Source: an uncultured Desulfuromonadales bacterium
GTDB lineage: Bacteria; Desulfobacterota; Desulfuromonadia; Geobacterales; CAIOGM01
Length of the DNA stretch: 52,193 nucleotides
Direction: 5' to 3'
NCBI GenBank assembly: GCA_903929485.1
Contig: CAIYUY010000330.1
Location: 1-52,193 of the forward strand
Numbering within the stretch: the first letter of the stretch is position 1; each line of letters opens with the position of its first letter. Shown here piece after piece: positions 1,613-18,352 of the stretch. The translations under genes were made by a program, and so were the position numbers. The notes under the pieces are model-generated. The model saw only the letters and a program-made list of their open reading frames with translations, ran no database searches and was not told the DNA's origin.

Positions 1613-2317
1613 TTACATCATCCGGAGAAGTACGGAGAAGCTGTACCCCCGGCGGTAGCCGCTTTCCAAGGGGGCGGGACGTCCGGTGCTGCTCTCGATC
1701 TTGCGCCGCAACCGCTGCACGATGGAATCAAGGGCTCTGGAGTCGGCGCCCACGGCGTCATACCCCAGCACGGTGTAGAGGTCGGCGCGAGCCACCGACT
1801 CTCCCTCGGCCTCCGCCAGACACTTCACCAGGGTCCGTTCCTGTCCGGACAACAGCACCCTGACTCCCAGGGGGGAAACGAGGGTCCAGGATGCCCGCTC
1901 CAGAGTCCACTGTTCGACGGGAGGAGAGATCATCGGGGTGATTCGCTCTCGACGGCGACGCGCCAGGTTGACGATAGCCGCCGCCAGTTCCGGCATGTTC
2001 ACCGGCTTGACCAGATAGAGATCGGCCCCCGCGCCATACCCCCGCACGCGGTCTTCCATGCCGTCCCGGGCGGTAATAATGATGATCCCCAGGTCGGTCT
2101 TGCGACGAAGGTAATCAGCCAGGGTGAAGCCTGACTGGTCCGGAAGATTAACATCCACCACGGCCACATCGAAATTGTGAGTGACAACCTCCCGGTAGAA
2201 TTCCATGACGCTCCCCACCCCCTCGGCCACCACTCCGGAAACGGTAAGAAAGCGGATGATGCTTTCCCGCAGATCCCGGTCATCTTCAATAATCACTACT
2301 CGTGGGTGGTGGGGCAC
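1613..2317 (-). CDS. OmpR-family response regulator, copy 1 (no adjacent kinase)
   Basis: Protein of 234 residues with an N-terminal receiver domain and a C-terminal winged helix-turn-helix. The acidic pocket is E11-D12-D13, the phospho-acceptor is D55, and the T82 and K104 switch residues are present, so it should be phosphorylatable. The C-terminal half has the LRRKI...GYRRGY pattern of OmpR/PhoB DNA-binding domains. The start is a GTG at 2317 preceded by AAGGAG at close spacing. It is a close paralogue of the regulator at 15419-16126, with the same 89-bp spacing to the downstream AAA/nuclease gene. No histidine kinase lies beside this copy, so it is an orphan here. The next gene upstream is a repeat lipoprotein whose leader region carries a candidate OmpR-type binding array. 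Confidence 0.92.
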   Translation of the reverse strand: MPHHPRVVIIEDDRDLRESIIRFLTVSGVVAEGVGSVMEFYREVVTHNFDVAVVDVNLPDQSGFTLADYLRRKTDLGIIIITARDGMEDRVRGYGAGADLYLVKPVNMPELAAAIVNLARRRRERITPMISPPVEQWTLERASWTLVSPLGVRVLLSGQERTLVKCLAEAEGESVARADLYTVLGYDAVGADSRALDSIVQRLRRKIESSTGRPAPLESGYRRGYSFSVLLRMM

Positions 2318-2515: not shown

Positions 2516-3634
2516 TTACTTGTTAGCACTCCATGCGCCGAGATCCTTGGGAAGGGACGGATCAAAATAGGCGCCGGTGAGATTGCCGGCGGCATCCTTG
2601 ACGCCCGTATACGTCTCGCTGTACGCCCCGTTCTCATCCGTTCCGGAGACATTGAACGTCACCCCGGTGTCGGTAACGACGAGATTGGAGTAAACCTCGG
2701 TCAATGGCGTAATGACCCCTGTGGCGCTCTTCCGCGCGGTGGTTCCCGAAACCCTGATTGTGGGAGGGGAAGCGGCGTCGATGATTACCGTCGTCGCGTA
2801 GGTGTAGTTGGCATCAATGGAGACAAATTTGTAGGTTCCGGCCAGGGTAAGCGCCGGCGCCGCACTCCAGGTCCCCGCATCGGCCGGTTTCGAAGGGTCG
2901 ACAAACGTTCCCAGCATGGCGGCGTTGGCGTCTTTGCTGCCGGTATAGGTTTCGTTGTACGCGCCGGTTTCATCGGATCCCGTCACCTTGAACGTCACGG
3001 CATTTCCCGCAACCGTCAGGTTGGAAAAAGTTTCGGCACGTTGTATGACGGTTCCATCGGCATTATTCTTCCGCTGGGTTGTCCCGGAAATCAGGATCGA
3101 TGGGGCGGGGGCGGCGACAATGATTGCCGTGGAGGTATAGGTGTAGGTGGCGTCCTTTGACACGAGAGTGTATGTCCCGGAAAGCGGGATAGAAAGCGTG
3201 GCGTTCCAGGCGCCGATATCGCCGGGGACGGTGGGATCAGTATAGGTTCCGATCAGTTTACCGTTGGCGTTTCTGACGCCGCGATAGGTTTCATTGTAGG
3301 CTCCTTTTTCATCGGTTCCGGCAACCTTGAAGGTGACGCCGGAATCGGTAATGACGAGAGCGGAGAAAACTTCGGCAAGTTGAGACACGACGCCGGTAAG
3401 GTTATTCACCCGCGCGGTTGTCCCCGAAATGGCGATGGCCGGTGGCGAGGCGTTATCGATGATCGCCGTGGAGGTATAGGTGTAGGTGGCATCCTTTGAT
3501 ACCAGCGTATACGTCCCCGGATACGCGCTGGTGTCCACGGTTGCCGGTGAACTGCTGGAACCGCCACAACCGGCCAGGCAGAACGTCAGCAGGGCAAACA
3601 GGCAACTCATCAGACAAAACAATTTTCGACTCAT
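2516..3634 (-). CDS. Secreted lipoprotein with three tandem ~110-residue repeats
   Basis: From the ATG at 3634 the protein has 372 residues and begins with a lipoprotein signal peptide ending in the lipobox LAGC followed by GGSSSS. A Shine-Dalgarno sequence AGAGGA lies 6 bp upstream. The mature part is three tandem repeats of about 110 residues. Each starts GTYTLVSKDATYTYTSTAII or similar, contains an ISGTT step and a GAYNETYTG step, and ends near a GxWSA motif. The repeats look like all-beta modules, and I do not recognise a named family. The frame stays open upstream, through a cysteine-rich segment with its own good ribosome binding site (3635-3904), so a longer product is possible. An anchored envelope protein is inferred. 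Confidence 0.75.
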   Translation of the reverse strand: MSRKLFCLMSCLFALLTFCLAGCGGSSSSPATVDTSAYPGTYTLVSKDATYTYTSTAIIDNASPPAIAISGTTARVNNLTGVVSQLAEVFSALVITDSGVTFKVAGTDEKGAYNETYRGVRNANGKLIGTYTDPTVPGDIGAWNATLSIPLSGTYTLVSKDATYTYTSTAIIVAAPAPSILISGTTQRKNNADGTVIQRAETFSNLTVAGNAVTFKVTGSDETGAYNETYTGSKDANAAMLGTFVDPSKPADAGTWSAAPALTLAGTYKFVSIDANYTYATTVIIDAASPPTIRVSGTTARKSATGVITPLTEVYSNLVVTDTGVTFNVSGTDENGAYSETYTGVKDAAGNLTGAYFDPSLPKDLGAWSANK

Positions 3635-3904
3635 CGCTCGTCCTCTGCGCAAAACATCATCAGGCCTGATCCTGATCTCTTTTTTAAAGGCGTTCTTTTT
3701 TAACTGCGACCGTTCAACACAAACCAATTGCGGACACTCCCCCTCTCGTACCAGAAGAGTAAACCCGGCGCCGCAGTTGTTGGGGCAAGCCACTACCTCC
3801 GTATGCTCCAGGGGAATCCCAAGCTCATATTCAACCCCACAAACAGGACAGTTGTAGTCGAATGAAATAGAGTAGCCGTGAATTATCCCTTGTTGCCTGT
3901 CCAT
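3635..3904 (-). CDS. Zinc-ribbon-like segment, in frame with the lipoprotein
   Basis: An ATG at 3904 has a strong AGGAGG 6 bp upstream and starts MDRQQGIIHGYSISFDYNCP. The first ~50 residues contain CPVCG and CPNNCG, a zinc-ribbon pattern that looks cytoplasmic. There is no stop before the lipoprotein start at 3634; both lie in one frame, which would give a 462-residue protein with a signal peptide in its middle. Options are a real small gene that lost its stop, a two-start gene giving cytoplasmic and exported forms, or a recent fusion. The sequence alone does not decide. Its leader resembles that of the 1555-residue gene. Confidence 0.5.
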
Positions 3905-3944
3905 GGTTTTCCTCCTGACAGTTAAAGCCATGCACACCCGGCAT

Positions 3945-4275
3945 TGTTCTCTTCCCCTACCTCTGCACGAACCTATCCGCAACGAGTAGTGCCGCGCCGA
4001 CGGGAACAGCGGAATGTATACGTAACAATGGGGGGGAAAAAGGGAGCGGAGCAGGAAGGAGTAACCGGAATGATTCACTTTACAGAGCCTGACGGCTGAA
4101 GCGTCCGCCACGCATACCACCGAACACAATAAATGAAAATAATAATGAGACAAGGAGCCGTGACGCAACCAGGCGCAATTGTAACGAAATGCATCGAAAT
4201 GCATCGAAATGTAACGGGTTTTAAGGGGAAAAAAGCGCGATTTATCAGTTATTTGACCGAACAGCTACGCCATAT
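3945..4275 (-). promoter_or_regulatory. Duplicated upstream region with decamer array, copy 1
   Basis: This leader matches 12195-12525 over most of its length. It holds four tandem 10-bp units at 4181-4220 (GTAACGAAAT, GCATCGAAAT twice, GTAACGGGTT on the plus strand). On the minus strand, which faces the lipoprotein gene, a candidate -35 TTGCGT (4163-4168) and -10 TATTAT at 18-bp spacing lie about 12 bp beyond the array. Ten-bp direct repeats just upstream of -35 are typical of OmpR/PhoB-family activators. A leader of over 200 nt would follow. The assignment is inferred from spacing and from conservation between the two copies. Confidence 0.6.
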
Positions 4276-4370
4276 GACAGGGGAAGAGAGAGAGAGTTTG
4301 CGACAAGAACCCAAGCCGAACAAGCCGGAACCAAAAATGATCGGAAAAAACCGGGAGCAATCGAGTAGCG

Positions 4371-10500: not shown

Positions 10501-12172
10501 GGGAAGAGGCCGTGGCAGTGAGGGGCGACGTGGTACCGTAGGTCTGGGTACCGGGGTTGGCGAAGGTGATGGTCTGGCTTGCTTTGTTCACCGTCTGGGT
10601 GAGGGTCGAGGAGTTCGAGCCGTAGTAACTGCCAGCGCCGACGTAAACAGCGGTAATACTGTGGCTGCCGACGGTAAGAGCTGTGGTATTGTAGGTGGCT
10701 GAGCCGCCGGAAAGGGCGCGGGTTCCAAGGGTTGTCCCGTCAGCATTGAACGAGACCGTGCCGGTGGCCGCGGAAGGTGTGACTGTGCCGGTGTAGGTGA
10801 TCGAAGCCCCCACAGTGGCGGGGTTACTGCCGGAAGAAACTGCGGTTGACGAACCCAACCCCAGCCTCATGACAGAAGCCTTTTGGTTAACAGTAGTATA
10901 ATCCATATACGACACGTAGGGGGCGCCGTCCGGGGCGAAGGCAAGTGAAGTGCTGTCGGCTCGACCGGCGGAGAACCCGGCGCTCCCCACCAGGGTCCAG
11001 GCCGTTCCGTCGTACTTCATCACGGTGGCCTTGTTGTCGATGTCATCCCAGTCCTGATACGCCACGTAGGGGGCGCCGTCCGGGGCGAAAGACAGGGAGA
11101 CGGAGTAAGGCATTCCGGCGGAGAACCCGGCGCTCCCCACCAGGGTCCAGACCGAACCGGTGTACTTCATCACGGAGGCCTTGTAGTTGTTGCCGCCATC
11201 TTGATACGCCACGTAGGGGGCGCCGTCCGGAGCGAAGGCAAGTGAGGGGTAGTTGGCTCCACCGGCGGAAACCGCGGCGCTCCCCACCAGGGTCCAGACC
11301 GAGCCGGTGTACTTCATCACGGTGGCCTCGCCGTGATTCTTCTTATCCACATATGCCACGTAGGGGGTCCCGTCTGGGGCGAAGGAAAGTGAGGCGGCTT
11401 TTGAGGAGGACCCAGCGCTCCCCACAAGGGTCCAGGCCGACCCGGTGTACTTCATTACGATGACCTCCCCAGTATTATCATCCTGATACGCCACGTAGGG
11501 TGCTCCGTCCGGAGCGAAGGCAAGTGAGGGGTAGTTGGCTTGGTTGACGGAAAACCCGGCGCTCCCCACCAGGGTCCAGGCCGAGCCGGTGTACTTCATC
11601 ACGGAGGCCTTGGAGCCATTGACGCCATCCTGATACGCCACGTAGGGGGCGCCGTCCGGGGCGAAAGAGAGTGAGGTAGAAGGTGTATAGCCGGCGGAGA
11701 ACCCGGCGCTTCCCACGATGCTCCAAGCCGGAGTGACGCCGGCGGTCATGGTGGTAGTGGTAACATTGGCCGCGACCGGGGTGGTCTGAAGGTTCGTCCC
11801 GTCATCGGCTGTGTAGCAGACCGTAAAGGCAGTGGTCTGAGGGAGGTTGTGCAGCGTGTAGAGACCCGCCACGGTTGCGGTGAGCGGCAGAGAACCGTGG
11901 TAGGGGGCCGTGACCCCACCGGCGGTCTGGCCCAGTTTGACCTGGTCCCCGGTGCCGCAGGCCGCGTTGGACCCACTGAGCAGGGTGAAATAGCCGGTTC
12001 CTGTGGCGCTGGAGGTCAGGTTGAGGGTGACCTGGTTGGTCCCCAGGTTGGTCGTGGTGGGGGTGGTAAGGGTCGGTGTCGCCGCCATCGCGCTCCCCCC
12101 CCACATCACCAGGGTCAACGCCAGCATGGCCGCCACCCCGGTGAAACGTCGGTACAACTTTTGTCTGTTCAT
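7505..12172 (-). CDS. Giant secreted multi-domain surface protein (six-repeat beta region and Ig-like domains)
   Basis: Protein of 1555 residues with an ATG at 12172 and AGGAG upstream. The signal peptide ends near GGSAMA. After a fibronectin-like segment come six ~48-residue repeats, each with SLSFAPDGAPYVAYQD and then VMKYTGSAWTLVG, probably a beta-propeller-like fold. About ten Ig-like modules follow, many of the TYTYSGSAQGPG...TTGGSTGALTFSY type found in large bacterial adhesins. Near the C terminus is an InlB-B-like unit (YQLTTTTDGHGAAIPAQQWY). I see no catalytic motif and no sorting signal at the C terminus. A role in adhesion or matrix is inferred. Its leader shares the decamer array with the lipoprotein gene. 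The two-component genes lie just upstream, beyond the Rpn gene. Confidence 0.88.
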   Translation of the reverse strand: MNRQKLYRRFTGVAAMLALTLVMWGGSAMAATPTLTTPTTTNLGTNQVTLNLTSSATGTGYFTLLSGSNAACGTGDQVKLGQTAGGVTAPYHGSLPLTATVAGLYTLHNLPQTTAFTVCYTADDGTNLQTTPVAANVTTTTMTAGVTPAWSIVGSAGFSAGYTPSTSLSFAPDGAPYVAYQDGVNGSKASVMKYTGSAWTLVGSAGFSVNQANYPSLAFAPDGAPYVAYQDDNTGEVIVMKYTGSAWTLVGSAGSSSKAASLSFAPDGTPYVAYVDKKNHGEATVMKYTGSVWTLVGSAAVSAGGANYPSLAFAPDGAPYVAYQDGGNNYKASVMKYTGSVWTLVGSAGFSAGMPYSVSLSFAPDGAPYVAYQDWDDIDNKATVMKYDGTAWTLVGSAGFSAGRADSTSLAFAPDGAPYVSYMDYTTVNQKASVMRLGLGSSTAVSSGSNPATVGASITYTGTVTPSAATGTVSFNADGTTLGTRALSGGSATYNTTALTVGSHSITAVYVGAGSYYGSNSSTLTQTVNKASQTITFANPGTQTYGTTSPLTATASSLLTPTFSSITTGVCTITTGGLLTFVTPGSCTINADQAGNDSYSAAPQVPQTFTVNKGTPIVMVTAGTYTYSGSAQGPGAGQTTTGGSTGTLSFSYVGVSGTTYGPLTTAPNNAGSYTVTATVTTDSNYNAASSSATAFSIGMGTPTASVGNSPQNYTGSAQSATVTCLGGGTAGNITTGGSTTQTNAGSYAVVADCDASTNYNAATGLAAGNFVLSKITPLVTVTPGTYTYSGSPQGPGVGQTTTGGSTGALTLSYAGTGSTNYLASETKPTSAGTYTVTATAATDINYTAVSSSATAFSISKATPVVTVTPGTYTYTGSAQGPGATETTEGSSTGALTFSYLGTGSTTYTASATKPTTAGTYNVTATAATDANYTAASSSAMAFSIDKATPSITSWPTALTITYGRTLADSSLTGGVSSPAGNFTFTTPTTAPNAGTNSQNVTFTPTDTADYSTVSGAVNVTVNKADPTIVFNSLSVTVGGSGTVSATGGSGSFTYSATSTADCSVSGANVTGMKVGAGNCIIKADQIESANYNAGTLTQSFSISQGNQTITFAPSRTLVVGGNSTVSASATSGLVVTYATTTSDVCILNGVNNSTLTGVKGGTCTITAAQPGNVNFTAASPTTQSFTVGLGNQTITFGSAPNLEAQGTATVTATGGTSGNPVVFSSLTLTTCSASGTNGSTVTGLLPGACTVAANQAGVDGYYNAAQQTTQNLIVTPQSQVSVVIQTTPSGLNFTVTDTDGTNSYVAPHLFNWVPGSAHTVTATSTQPGISGVRYLFNNWSDGGSMTHTVTAPVASATYTAAFATQYQLTTTTDGHGAAIPAQQWYNAGEYATILATPASGYVFSTWTLTGGSGVITNPAAVTTSVAMNGPTGVNGAMLLLAPANLSATIVTGGKSGIIGGIRSWPISIQNTGSAVVDGVTLNSVTLSTSGACKPTVTTDSLLPLAYGVVAGPGVVTQNVQVNFAKCPLLTKFTVTVRYGASGGVTGSNSFTGVTQ

Positions 12173-12194: not shown

Positions 12195-12525
12195 CGGTTT
12201 CTTACCCCTGTTTCTGCACGAACCTCTCCGCAACGGGGGTGGCTCTGCTGACGGGAGCGCAGCGTGTATACACAAAGTTTGCAAGGGGAGGAGTCGTGCC
12301 AGAGGGGAGTAACCGGAATGATTAGGATTTCAACAGTTGGCGACTGGATCGTCCGCTACGCATACCACCGCACACAATAAATGAAAATAATAATGAGACA
12401 AGGAGCCTTGACGCAACCAAGCGCAATTGTAACGAAATGCATCGAAATGTAACGAAATGTAACGGGTTTTGAGGGGAAAAAAGCGCGGTTTATCAGTGAT
12501 TTGACCGAACAGCTACGTCATTTGA
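12195..12525 (-). promoter_or_regulatory. Duplicated upstream region with decamer array, copy 2
   Basis: This matches 3945-4275. Four tandem decamers occupy 12429-12468 (plus strand GTAACGAAAT, GCATCGAAAT, GTAACGAAAT, GTAACGGGTT). Read on the minus strand, the junction of two units gives TACATTTCGTTACA, which fits the RstA box consensus TACATNTNGTTACA as I know it. The same TTGCGT / TATTAT candidate promoter follows toward the 1555-residue gene, with a leader of roughly 200 nt. The region is also upstream of the divergent Rpn gene and could act on both. Confidence 0.65.
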
Positions 12526-12798
12526 CGACCCTTCGACTTCCCTTCGACTTCGCTCAGGGACCACGCTCAGGGACTACGCTCAAGGACCGGATGACGGGAG
12601 AGGGAAGGAGCTTAAGGCGAGCCGGAACCAACCAGGACGCGGATAAACGCCGATGAACGCGGATCAAGTACGTCAACGGATTTTGTCGGGGGGTATTTTC
12701 GCGTCCCGCTATCCGACCAACATTGATCACTACAATTTCAATTGCTCATGTATAGTGTTGCTGTTACGGTGTCGCGGTCGGTATCCAGGGAGTCCATT
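12526..12798. other. Intergenic region with common short repeats
   Basis: It contains a CTTCGACTTCGCTCAGGGA-type repeat (12528-12580) and a GCGGATAAACGCCGATGAAC repeat (about 12638-12665) that recurs at 34796-34826. No gene is supported. The ribosome binding site of the Rpn gene (GGGAG) lies at the right end. Confidence 0.5.
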
Positions 12799-13790: not shown

Positions 13791-15329
13791 CTACCCTTCG
13801 ATCTCGAACCCCACGATGTTCCGGCTTTCGCGGCTGAACTCCACGCCGATGAGGCTGATCGGTTCACCGTATCGCCGGTACTTCTCGGCGTACCCCTTGC
13901 TCTTCAACTGCTCCAGAGCCTTTCCTTCCGGAACCATCTCCACCACCTTGAATTCAAACAGATAGATTCGGCGGTTGTACCGCACCGTCATGTCGATCCG
14001 CCCCCTGTTGGTGGCGTCCTCCACGATGATCTCCAGTCCCAGGGCGGCAAAGTAGCTATAGAAGATACTGGCGTAATAACCTTCGTACCCTGCCAACTGA
14101 TTCTTCCGGTACCAGTCGTGAGGGATGGAGGCATAGGAGGAGTGAAAGAGCTCCCGCAGGGCCGGCAGGTCGTCTGCTTTTAGAATGTCGTAGAGTCGGC
14201 TGACATTCACCGCGGGAACCATGGGATCCTGGGATAACTCCCGCAACAGGGCATCGTTCAGGCTGGACTGAACCTCCTTGTTGGGATAGCGAAGGGTCAA
14301 TTCCAACCGACCGGGGAGATAGCGGGCGGAGTCGATGGTAAGATAGCCGGTCTGAAACAGCAGCGCCTCAACGGGAATATTATCCACGTCGAAGGTGGAG
14401 AGGAGCGATTCGGGGGCCATGATCCGGGCCAGGTCGGGAGTGAACTGCTGTCGCCGGGAAAGGAGCTTGAGGAGAAACGTGGGGGTTCCGGTCTCGAACC
14501 ACCAGGGGCGGAACTCACGGTTACGGAACAGCAGCAACAGGTCAAAGGGGTTGTAAACGGCTTCGCCGGTCCAGTTGTAACCGTTGTACCAATCTCTGAT
14601 CTCGTCGCGATCAAGCCCTTCCAACTCGGGTGCAAAGACGGCGTCAAGGTCGCTATCAGTATAGCCGCAGATGGCGCTGAATCTTTTGTCAAGGGTGATG
14701 TCCTCCAGGTTATTGAGTCCGGAGGAGATGCTCACCTTGGAAAACTTGCTGACTCCGGTGAGGAAGGCGAACTTGACGTGGGCATCCGCTCCCTTGATGA
14801 CGGAATAGATATCCTTCAGTTTTTCACGCATCTCGGTGGCCGTGTCCGATGATTCGATGTTATCCAGGATCGGCTTATCGTATTCGTCAACCAGGACCAC
14901 TACTCTTTGGCCGAATTTTTGGTGAGTCTTTCGTATCAGTTCCAAAAAACAGCCGGCGTTGCTGGCGGCTTCACAGCTGACCCCCAACCGCTGCTGATGA
15001 TGACGGAGCAGTTCGGTGATTCTCTCCTTCAGTTCGGCGCCGCTTTTCACCACTCCCTCGCCGAAGCTGATCCTGATAACCGGGTAGGTTACCGACCAGT
15101 CCCATTGATCACCTGCCGCCAGCCCCTGGAAGAGGAGCCGGTTTCCCTCGAACAGTTCCTTCAGGGTGTCCAGAAACAGGCTCTTGCCGAAACGCCGGGG
15201 CCGAGAGAGGAAGTAATGGCTTCCCTGATCAATGAGGGAGAGGGCAAAAGCGGTCTTATCGACGTAGTAATAGTTGCCTTCGCGGATTTTGGAAAAGGTC
15301 TGAATACCGATGGGAAGTTTCTTGCGCAT
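13791..15329 (-). CDS. AAA-ATPase-like / PD-(D/E)XK nuclease family protein, copy 2
   Basis: Complete 512-residue protein. Residues ~1-60 include YYVDKTAF and the Walker A region RPRRFGKSLFLDTL. Walker B is VVVLVDEYDKP, followed by FAFLTGVSKFSKVS and the WYNGYNW motif. The C-terminal ~110 residues carry GRIDMTVRYNRRIYLFEFKV, a PD-(D/E)XK-type active site. These proteins (PF09820 plus DUF1703) are common in Bacteroidetes and deltaproteobacteria as multicopy accessory genes of unknown role. It lies 89 bp downstream of the response regulator and is probably part of the kinase-regulator transcript. Confidence 0.9.
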   Translation of the reverse strand: MRKKLPIGIQTFSKIREGNYYYVDKTAFALSLIDQGSHYFLSRPRRFGKSLFLDTLKELFEGNRLLFQGLAAGDQWDWSVTYPVIRISFGEGVVKSGAELKERITELLRHHQQRLGVSCEAASNAGCFLELIRKTHQKFGQRVVVLVDEYDKPILDNIESSDTATEMREKLKDIYSVIKGADAHVKFAFLTGVSKFSKVSISSGLNNLEDITLDKRFSAICGYTDSDLDAVFAPELEGLDRDEIRDWYNGYNWTGEAVYNPFDLLLLFRNREFRPWWFETGTPTFLLKLLSRRQQFTPDLARIMAPESLLSTFDVDNIPVEALLFQTGYLTIDSARYLPGRLELTLRYPNKEVQSSLNDALLRELSQDPMVPAVNVSRLYDILKADDLPALRELFHSSYASIPHDWYRKNQLAGYEGYYASIFYSYFAALGLEIIVEDATNRGRIDMTVRYNRRIYLFEFKVVEMVPEGKALEQLKSKGYAEKYRRYGEPISLIGVEFSRESRNIVGFEIEG

Positions 15330-15418: not shown

Positions 15419-16126
15419 TTACGTCATCCGGAGAAGTCCGGAGCAACTGTACCCCCGGCGGTAACCACTTTCCAGGGGGGCGGGACGCCCGGTGGCGCTT
15501 TCAATCTTGCGCCGCAACCGCTGCACGGTGGCGTCAAGGGCGCGGGAGTCGCCTCCTGCTTCGTCATACCCAAGCACAGTACAGAGGTCGGCGCGCGCGA
15601 TAGGTTCTCCCCCTGCCTCGGCCAAGCACTTCACCAGGGTCCGTTCCTGGCCTGACAACAGTATCTTCACCCCCAGTGGGGAGACGAGAGTCCAGGAGGT
15701 CCGTTCCAGAGTCCATTGCTCGGCGGGAGGAGGAGCACTCACCTCGGCAGTTCGCTCCCGGCGGCGCCGCGCCAGGTTGACGATGGCCGCCGCCAGTTCC
15801 GGCATGTTCACCGGCTTGACCAGATAGAGGTCGGCCCCCGCGCCGTACCCCCGCACCCGGTCTTCCATGCCGTCCCGGGCGGTGATGATGATGATCCCCA
15901 GGTCGGTCTTGCGGCGGAGGTAATCGGCCAGGGTAAAGCCTGACTGGTCCGGAAGATTAACATCCACCACGGCTACGTCGAAGTCGCGAGTGACAACCTC
16001 CTTGTAAAATTCCAGGACACTCCCCACCCCCTCGGCCACCACTCCGGACACGGAAAGAAAACGGATGATACTTTCCCGCAGATCCTGGTCATCTTCGATA
16101 ATCACTACCCGTCGGGCTTCGGTCAT
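15419..16126 (-). CDS. OmpR-family response regulator, copy 2
   Basis: Protein of 235 residues, start ATG at 16126 with GAGGA upstream. The receiver domain has the acidic triad near residues 10-12, the aspartate in VVDVNLP as phospho-acceptor, and the TARDG and YLVKPV switch residues. The C-terminal winged helix matches OmpR/PhoB. It follows the histidine kinase gene (75-bp gap), so the pair is most likely a cognate two-component system. It is nearly identical to the regulator at 1613-2317 apart from scattered changes, mainly in the linker (AEVSAPPPAEQ against TPMISPPVEQ). A plausible target is the decamer array upstream of the two surface protein genes. Confidence 0.93.
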   Translation of the reverse strand: MTEARRVVIIEDDQDLRESIIRFLSVSGVVAEGVGSVLEFYKEVVTRDFDVAVVDVNLPDQSGFTLADYLRRKTDLGIIIITARDGMEDRVRGYGAGADLYLVKPVNMPELAAAIVNLARRRRERTAEVSAPPPAEQWTLERTSWTLVSPLGVKILLSGQERTLVKCLAEAGGEPIARADLCTVLGYDEAGGDSRALDATVQRLRRKIESATGRPAPLESGYRRGYSCSGLLRMT

Positions 16127-16154: not shown

Positions 16155-16232
16155 TACAGCTTTCCTCTGCGTACCTCCGCGTCCTCTGCGATAAAACTTC
16201 TTACAACGCAGAGGACGCAGGGGAGCGCAGAG
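16155..16232. repeat. Inverted repeat (GCAGAGGACGC type) overlapping the kinase 3' end
   Basis: The arms TTTCCTCTGCG...CCTCTGCG and CGCAGAGGACGC...GCAGAGGAAA face each other across about 14 bp. The right arm encodes the last ~10 residues of the histidine kinase (FPLRSPASSAL) and its stop codon. Confidence 0.8.
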
Positions 16233-18216
16233 GAAAACCGGTCGACAGGGGAAGACGTACGATGGCCACGGCCCCGGTGGGACCACTCTCCAGAGTGACG
16301 CGTCCCCCATGCTCCTCCAAGATTCGTGCCACCAACCAGAGACCCAATCCGGCCCCCACGGTTCCGGTGGCGGCGCTCCCCCGGAAATATTTCTCGAAGA
16401 GCCGCTTTCCCTCCTCCGAAGAGACGCCGCTCCCCTGGTCCGCCACCCGGATGACAACCTGGCCGCCGGCAACCTCCCAGGTGACGGTGACGGGACGATC
16501 TACCGGAGAGTATTTGAGCCCATTGTCCACCAGATTGAGCAGCGCGGTCTGAAGCAGGAGGGGATCCCCCTGTACCACGACGGCAACGCCGGGAACCACC
16601 ACCACCCGCCGGTCGGGCCAGTACTCCGTCGCCTGTTCCAGGAGTCCGGCGCAGAGCTTCGCCACTCCCAACGGCTCCGGACGGAGTGTGAGGGCGCCGT
16701 CGGAAAGCCGCACCCGCCCCAGGGAGACCTCCAGGACCTCCACCAGACGGATCACGGCCCGCTTCATCTTCCCCACGGCGAAGGCGATGTTTTCATCCTT
16801 GTCGTGCAGCAAATCCAGCAGGTCCAGGTTGGTCCGGATGATGGCCAGCGGCGTCCGATATTCATGAGTGACCATGGCCACGAAACGGGTCTGGCGCTGC
16901 AGCGCTTCCCGCAGCTCGCACGTCATCTCTTCCGCCAGCTCCACGGCCACCGCCTCGGTGCGGCGGGAAGCCGCCAGCACCAACTCCCGCGAGACCTCCA
17001 ACCGCTTGATCAGGGCCAGGGTAATCATCACCATCTGGAGGATCATACCGTAATAATAACCGTAGGTGGTGAACCAGGTGGGGTGGATCAGGCCGAGAAC
17101 CACGAGAAACCGTGGCACTGCGGGGATCAGGACCACGGAGAACCCCGCAATAATCCACCCGCCGGCAGGGGCGCCGCGCCGCAGGGATTGATAGGCCAGC
17201 AGCGGGATGAAACAGGCCAGGAGCAGATAGCAGATCGTCGTCACCGGCGCCAGCCGGCCATACAATCCCAGGGGAATGCCGAGAGCGTTGAGAACTCCGA
17301 TGAGGATGTTCAGTTGCAGGAGGCGGTGAACATACGGCCGCTCGTCGCTGGTATTGAAGAGCCGCATGACAAAGAGGCTGTAGGCGCACAAGCCCAGGCT
17401 GATCCCCCCTCCCACCAAATAATCGTTCACCAGGTGAGCACCCGACGGCCAGAGGACGAAGATCGCCCCATCAATCCCCAACTGCCGGATAAAAAAAGTC
17501 AGGGCGAAGAGCGAATAATAACCAAAAAGAACGTCACGGAGCATGAGCGCCAGGAGGGTGCTGATCACCAGGTCGAAGAGAATGATCCCCAGCAGTCCCC
17601 CCATCCAGGTGGTGTAGTGGGCGGACCAGGCAATAAACTCGTCTCCGGGATAGATCCACCCCTGAAGGGTATGAGTGCTGGAGCTCTTGACCCGGATGTA
17701 GACCTGATGAGGAACGGCGCTGGAAGGAAGCTGCGCCACCATGTCGGAATGGCGGATCGTCCGCTTTGTCGCGGGATAATGGTCTCCCAGATCGTAGACG
17801 CGGTAGGAGGAGGGAGTTGTCGGATCTGCTCCCACCTGGACATAGACCGTGACCTCGTCCAGAAAGGCCGGAGTCAGTCGAAGATACAGTTCCCCGGAGC
17901 TCTCCGCGCCGGGAAGATAGGTGAAGCGGCTCCAGCTTGCCGAGGAGGTGAACCCGTAATTCACAAAACCGGGGAGCGGGACGAACCGGGGGGAGGATTT
18001 GCCGGTCAGCAGCTCCCCCAGGGTGAGGGCGCCCCCCGGATCAACCAGGTTTTCCAGATGACCGGCCAGGGAGAAGGGAGGTGCCTTATCCAGGAGGAGC
18101 GGCGAGGCGTCCGCCACGGGGATACAACGCCAGAGACAAATGAACAGCAGGAAGCAGAAGTGGAGGAGCAGTTGCGGCATGGGGGGATCACTTTCGGGGA
18201 TAAAGCAAGTTGTCAT
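16201..18216 (-). CDS. 7TMR-DISM-type sensor histidine kinase
   Basis: About 671 residues. A signal-peptide-like N terminus is followed by a periplasmic DISM-type beta domain (to about residue 200) and seven hydrophobic helices (about 205-395). A short coiled coil and a HisKA domain with MVTHEYRTPLAII (phospho-accepting H) come next, then a HATPase domain with N box LVDNGLKYSP, G1 DQGSGV and G2 GAGLGLWL. All key residues are present. The start is uncertain: the ATG at 18216 has AAAGG close upstream, and an in-frame ATG at 18180 lacks a clear site. DISM domains in other kinases sense carbohydrates or other small ligands. The downstream regulator is its likely partner. The C terminus is encoded by a repeat. 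Confidence 0.88.
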   Translation of the reverse strand: MTTCFIPESDPPMPQLLLHFCFLLFICLWRCIPVADASPLLLDKAPPFSLAGHLENLVDPGGALTLGELLTGKSSPRFVPLPGFVNYGFTSSASWSRFTYLPGAESSGELYLRLTPAFLDEVTVYVQVGADPTTPSSYRVYDLGDHYPATKRTIRHSDMVAQLPSSAVPHQVYIRVKSSSTHTLQGWIYPGDEFIAWSAHYTTWMGGLLGIILFDLVISTLLALMLRDVLFGYYSLFALTFFIRQLGIDGAIFVLWPSGAHLVNDYLVGGGISLGLCAYSLFVMRLFNTSDERPYVHRLLQLNILIGVLNALGIPLGLYGRLAPVTTICYLLLACFIPLLAYQSLRRGAPAGGWIIAGFSVVLIPAVPRFLVVLGLIHPTWFTTYGYYYGMILQMVMITLALIKRLEVSRELVLAASRRTEAVAVELAEEMTCELREALQRQTRFVAMVTHEYRTPLAIIRTNLDLLDLLHDKDENIAFAVGKMKRAVIRLVEVLEVSLGRVRLSDGALTLRPEPLGVAKLCAGLLEQATEYWPDRRVVVVPGVAVVVQGDPLLLQTALLNLVDNGLKYSPVDRPVTVTWEVAGGQVVIRVADQGSGVSSEEGKRLFEKYFRGSAATGTVGAGLGLWLVARILEEHGGRVTLESGPTGAVAIVRLPLSTGFPLRSPASSAL

Positions 18217-18222
18217 TACCTT

Positions 18223-18352
18223 TGAACCGCAAAGACGCAAAGTACGCGAAGAAAGCAGAGAGAAACGACGGAACCTGGTTTCTTATCTGGTTTTCCTCAA
18301 AAAAAGGCTTTTTCTTTGCGCTTCCTTTGCGTCCTTTGCGTCTTTGCGGTGA
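18223..18352. repeat. Long inverted repeat (CGCAAAGACGC type)
   Basis: The arms GAACCGCAAAGACGCAAAG... (18223-18260) and CTTTGCGTCTTTGCGGTG (to 18352) are reverse complements enclosing about 60 bp. It is the fourth member of the set of long imperfect palindromes at 2341, 7329 and 16155, and lies directly upstream of the kinase start. The rest of the gap to 18496 holds nothing recognisable. Confidence 0.8.

Follow-up and report, generated by a model that had tools for sequence, protein, structure and literature searches.

A lipoprotein signal peptide inside a longer reading frame of an uncultured Desulfuromonadales bacterium: a probable local gene fusion and an RNA leader element missing from it

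How does a lipoprotein signal peptide come to lie in the middle of an open reading frame? The question is raised by a frame on the minus strand of a 52,193-nucleotide contig from an uncultured Desulfuromonadales bacterium (the window, meaning the whole stretch of DNA that was analyzed).

One reading frame with two candidate starts

The frame runs from ATG 3904 to 2516 (462 codons) behind an AGGAGG, exactly as given in the initial annotation, and joins a 90-residue zinc-ribbon segment (3635..3904, minus strand) to a complete 372-residue lipoprotein (2516..3634, minus strand). The AGGAGG (3911..3916, minus strand) has a Shine-Dalgarno energy of -10.3 kcal/mol, a value reached by 3% of the ATGs in the window. 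The internal ATG 3634 had been credited with a good ribosome binding site of its own; it is in frame and an AGAGGA (3641..3646, minus strand) does lie 5' of the Met, but at -5.8 kcal/mol the site is only moderate. This energy is reached by 23% of the window ATGs, and the paralogous lipoprotein starts on contig C281 of the same genome (G000) and in the sister genome G001 have energies of -7.2 and -8.3 kcal/mol. The frame is also open upstream to ATG 4204 (562 codons), which was rejected as a start since it is without Shine-Dalgarno pairing (+1.2 kcal/mol) and falls within the promoter region.

The lipobox signal peptide described from ATG 3634 was readily recognized (MSRKLFCLMSCLFALLTFCLAGC), with an n-region, a hydrophobic core and a lipobox Cys near the N-terminus of the conserved start. 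It resembles Sec/Lgt-type bacterial lipoproteins in its positively charged n-region, hydrophobic core and LAGC lipobox at Cys23 (MAGC and MTGC in the paralogues), and differs from them in that the coding frame reaches 90 codons further upstream, in this copy only. The paralogues share 86% (C281) and 72% (G001) identity with it, and as the three proteins have their first Met in common (MSRK/MSRR), ATG 3634 is taken as the ancestral lipoprotein start. Judged by its substitutions, the lipoprotein is clearly under purifying selection (dN/dS 0.22). Its body consists of three similar repeats of ~110 residues, each with nine predicted strands (repeat model pLDDT 76), and the repeats are predicted to have small beta-barrel character. 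Fold searches with the whole fusion and with one repeat gave only weak small beta-barrel matches (TbpB, hemophilin, and designed barrels), and no functional claim is therefore made for the lipoprotein. Sequence searches of the PDB gave no solid relative, and matches among 297 genomes of the phylum were confined to the bacterium's own genome, the G001 lipoprotein having come from a search of 58 genomes.

The zinc-ribbon segment (C19-x2-C22 ... C40-x3-C44) shares 70% identity with a free-standing gene on contig C283 of the same genome and 64% with a gene of the sister genome G002, and the four predicted zinc ligands (C19, C22, C40, and C44) are invariant across the three homologues. The best profile match, a weak one, was to PF21344 (LysW-like zinc ribbon; E 1.3e-4, 22.0 bits, under the curated cut-off of 27). 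The segment has the CxxC...C spacing and short beta-ribbon of that family; unlike it, the window segment scores below the curated cut-off and its homologues were found, among the searched genomes, in this genus only. A search of 395 phylum genomes gave marginal matches outside the bacterium's own genome (E ~7e-4), which were dismissed as generic zinc ribbons, and for neither half did the sampled phylum genomes yield a convincing homologue beyond this genus. Between the window and C283, the segment shows 14 synonymous and 18 non-synonymous differences (p = 0.007; dN/dS 0.32), a synonymous excess that the other two frames do not have. Judged by this excess, the zinc-ribbon half is coding and under purifying selection. 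When only the window branch is considered, selection shows less clearly (9 synonymous to 16 non-synonymous, p = 0.09), and for this reason the zinc ribbon may be decaying.

Separate genes in relatives and the joint in the window

In the relatives, the two halves are separate genes. The free-standing zinc ribbon of the same genome (C283:1596-1922) is without a lipoprotein, while the lipoprotein paralogue (C281:8721-9836) has its own start and its own 5' leader. A broken zinc-ribbon remnant lies 5' of the C281 lipoprotein, with codons 46-80 left and the start and first half lost, and the gene order there is leader, zinc-ribbon remnant, lipoprotein, and response regulator, as in the window. In the sister genomes, G002 has a free zinc ribbon on C35 behind a membrane-protein gene and one for a PEP-CTERM-like protein, and G001 has the lipoprotein alone on C158. 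The initial annotation had suggested that a gene boundary may have been lost, which is borne out in this copy only, and the finding it had named as telling against its account, orthologues with clearly separate genes, was made in C283, C281, G001, and G002. The fusion is therefore a local derived state and not a conserved two-protein design.

We also observed, on G002 contig C432 (L033 370-440), a leader followed by a six-codon zinc-ribbon-like start (MNRQQG) and then a separate exported-protein gene; the six codons are apparently another zinc-ribbon remnant.

Alignments place the putative joint on an ATGA (3631..3634, minus strand) that is common to the C283 zinc-ribbon tail and the C281 and G001 lipoprotein starts. 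The window tracks the C283 tail up to GAGGACGAGCGATGA and then continues as lipoprotein sequence, homology to C281 and G001 beginning at ATGAGT. As the zinc-ribbon frame of C283 already has a Met at the homologous site (DDLLRGGRAM vs PDDVLRRGRAM), a join at ATGA would be in frame automatically. With the joint on ATGA, the AGAGGA before 3634, which is homologous to C283 zinc-ribbon coding sequence (GGAGGACGAGCGATGA), would be inherited zinc-ribbon sequence and not the lipoprotein's own ribosome site. Alternatively, the in-frame GGAGGACGAGCG-ATG of C283 could be no coincidence but the genuine start, internal to the zinc-ribbon frame, of an older gene downstream. The distance from the conserved zinc ribbon to the lipoprotein Met is only 21 codons, over which the chance of an open frame is P ~0.36, times 1/3 for phase, so that the fusion alone is not statistically striking. 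In C281 the joint is a different one (GGATCA/ATCAAGG), leading into the leader that belongs to the lipoprotein and is present in G001 too; the window and C281 copies thus appear to have been trimmed independently. The order of leader, zinc ribbon, lipoprotein, and response regulator in C281 further argues that the genes were neighbours before they fused, and makes an assembly chimera an unlikely source of the window arrangement.

On these grounds we propose, with a probability of about two in three, that a local deletion at the 4-bp ATGA brought two adjacent genes into one frame. The ancestor would have carried a zinc-ribbon gene followed by a secreted-lipoprotein gene, adjacent and probably co-transcribed, each with the tail seen in the separate copies. 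A deletion at the shared ATGA would have taken the zinc-ribbon gene's last part together with the intergenic sequence and the lipoprotein leader with its pseudoknot element (see below) and own ribosome site. The same picture could come from an error of sequencing or assembly by which a stop between two separate genes disappeared or the frame between them shifted; the genome is a draft of 369 contigs, and the +1 phase would end on ATGA. Such an error is nevertheless highly improbable, since an in-frame Met is found independently at the corresponding position of C283 and the adjacency of zinc ribbon and lipoprotein recurs in C281.

After the proposed deletion, one mRNA would carry two in-frame starts, both of which are probably in use to judge from their ribosome sites. 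The most likely outcome would be two products, a fusion of 462 residues from ATG 3904 and a normal lipoprotein of 372 residues from ATG 3634, the latter translated from a ribosome site contributed by zinc-ribbon coding sequence, with export through Sec and lipidation at Cys23 to follow. Within the 462-residue fusion, the signal peptide would serve as no more than an internal signal-anchor, or else as a signal cleaved very late. A serious, if rather unlikely, rival to the two-product outcome is that only the lipoprotein start matters and that the zinc ribbon is a decaying leftover as yet without a stop. The C281 remnant without start and first half, the six codons left behind the leader on G002 C432 and the weak selection on the window branch are in line with such decay, whereas the four zinc-ligand cysteines, the start and the strong Shine-Dalgarno sequence in the window are all intact.

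Two products from one frame also recall the Spa33/SctQ-type genes, in which an internal in-frame start gives a shorter C-terminal product and several products have been shown and are required (PMC6925163). A maintained gene of this type, in which the full-length fusion and the short lipoprotein each serve a function, would agree with the ribosome sites at both starts, including the in-frame internal start that dual-start genes need, and with the overall purifying selection on both halves. We regard it as doubtful, since the fused form is found in one copy of one genome only, the genes being separate or broken in the paralogues and sister genomes, and selection on the zinc ribbon is not significant on the window branch alone. 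In contrast to Spa33/SctQ, the window case is a single recent local fusion, known from sequence, whose predicted short product is an exported lipoprotein. The proposed joining of adjacent genes is most readily understood as a fusion of an ordinary kind that is recent, local and in frame. The signal peptide in mid-protein would then be the trace of that fusion, and the lipoprotein should accordingly be annotated from 3634.

An RNA leader element absent from the fused gene

The lipoprotein leaders of C281 and G001 carry an element (ATCAAGGCAACGGCTCCGTCTTGAT...CGGAGCC) of ~50 nt, with a consensus of about RACACCAAGACAAAGGCUCCGUCUUGGUGUUNNACGGUAUYYCUCGGAGCC, that ends just upstream of the ribosome site. 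Searching by pattern first, and next with a one-stem covariance model derived from nine examples, we identified 44 examples in Geobacterales with E below about 1e-4 (L008 4857-4901 and L104 1501-1546, both on the minus strand, and 42 further). In the alignment of the 44 sequences, two interleaved stems have standard pairs in 88.8% of cells, compared with at most 50% when slid, and double changes occur in nine of the 15 pairs; one of 500 shuffles reaches the covariation score. These values favour stem 2, because the examples had been collected on sequence similarity and then aligned by a fit to that stem. The element is thus a candidate H-type pseudoknot with covariation in both stems. Of the proteins encoded downstream of it, 32 of 37 look exported by simple hydrophobicity rules, 18 of them with a lipobox, compared with 11 of 28 for other open reading frames at the same loci (p = 8e-5).

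Rfam 15 covariance models gave no match over the element at E<=5 (eight loci) or E<=1 (eleven further loci), nor any match on the window, and the core string of the element is absent from the searched literature. The conserved RNA leader appears to be previously uncatalogued. An RsmY match beside the C281 paralogue (E 0.036) was set aside as far below gathering. An attC-like recombination site was considered less likely for the element, given its constant position before start codons and no RYYYAAC/GTTRRRY core found by eye.

In the window the element is absent, the best covariance-model match reaching 10.5 bits. As it precedes the C281 and G001 lipoproteins and has no copy in the window, the fusion seems to have stripped the lipoprotein of its pseudoknot leader. 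On balance, we favour the view that the RNA lost through the fusion belonged to an undescribed cis-regulatory class, placed upstream of the ribosome sites of lipoproteins and other exported proteins across Geobacterales, and that the window gene is a natural loss variant with its lipoprotein under zinc-ribbon translation. GEMM-Ib (cGAMP) riboswitches of Geobacter, of the same bacterial order, are likewise leader RNAs before genes for extracellular and envelope proteins (PMC6456294); the element differs from them in being a putative H-type pseudoknot with another core. The RNA element is a more novel lead than the fusion. Should it act as a riboswitch or as a translational switch for exported proteins, its role and the ligand would be directly testable in culturable Geobacter.

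Promoter cassette, regulators, and neighbouring genes

The fused gene is preceded by a repeated promoter/5'UTR cassette of ~330 bp (3950..4284, minus strand). Copies lie before the window gene at 12172 (12200-12526) and before genes on C283, C281 (two copies), C21 and G002 C432 (among them L009 434-766, the L008 leaders, and L033 29-350), upstream of surface-protein genes, and among the genomes tested the cassette is confined to this genus. An RNA fold of the ~330-nt leader received no support from covariation (term +0.11). A candidate promoter, TTGCGT-N18-TATTAT (4139..4168, minus strand), read by eye from the alignment, is kept in the leader copies. The cassette also has four 10-bp tandem repeats (GTTACATTTC GATGCATTTC GATGCATTTC GTTACAAT; 4177..4215, minus strand), a candidate site for an OmpR-family response regulator. 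A pattern search for their consensus (RCATTTCGNN) found it in three of four genomes of the genus; 13 genomes from other genera and the reversed control gave no copy. Tandem repeats of 10 bp are the type bound by OmpR-family regulators.

The downstream neighbour of the fused gene is an OmpR-family response regulator (1613..2317, minus strand), 86% identical to a second copy at 15419-16126. A 7TMR-DISM histidine kinase (16201-18240) lies upstream of one of the OmpR-family regulators of the window, and kinase and regulator genes are adjacent in G001. The OmpR-family regulators and the 7TMR-DISM kinase are likely candidates for control of the repeated cassette, and the regulator may bind the repeats at 4177-4215. 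The response-regulator copy that adjoins the lipoprotein paralogue on C281 (L089 1495-1941, minus strand) is truncated N-terminally (residues 71-233, 92% identical).

Genes for PEP-CTERM, TPR, and Ig-like surface proteins are found around the locus. In addition, two AAA-ATPase-like/PD-(D/E)XK genes were identified in the window, one at 13791-15329, assigned by Pfam, and one at 3-1523, which was assigned by sequence resemblance and is cut off by the contig end. Before the C281 leader lies the end of a gene resembling these, which points to a segmental duplication.
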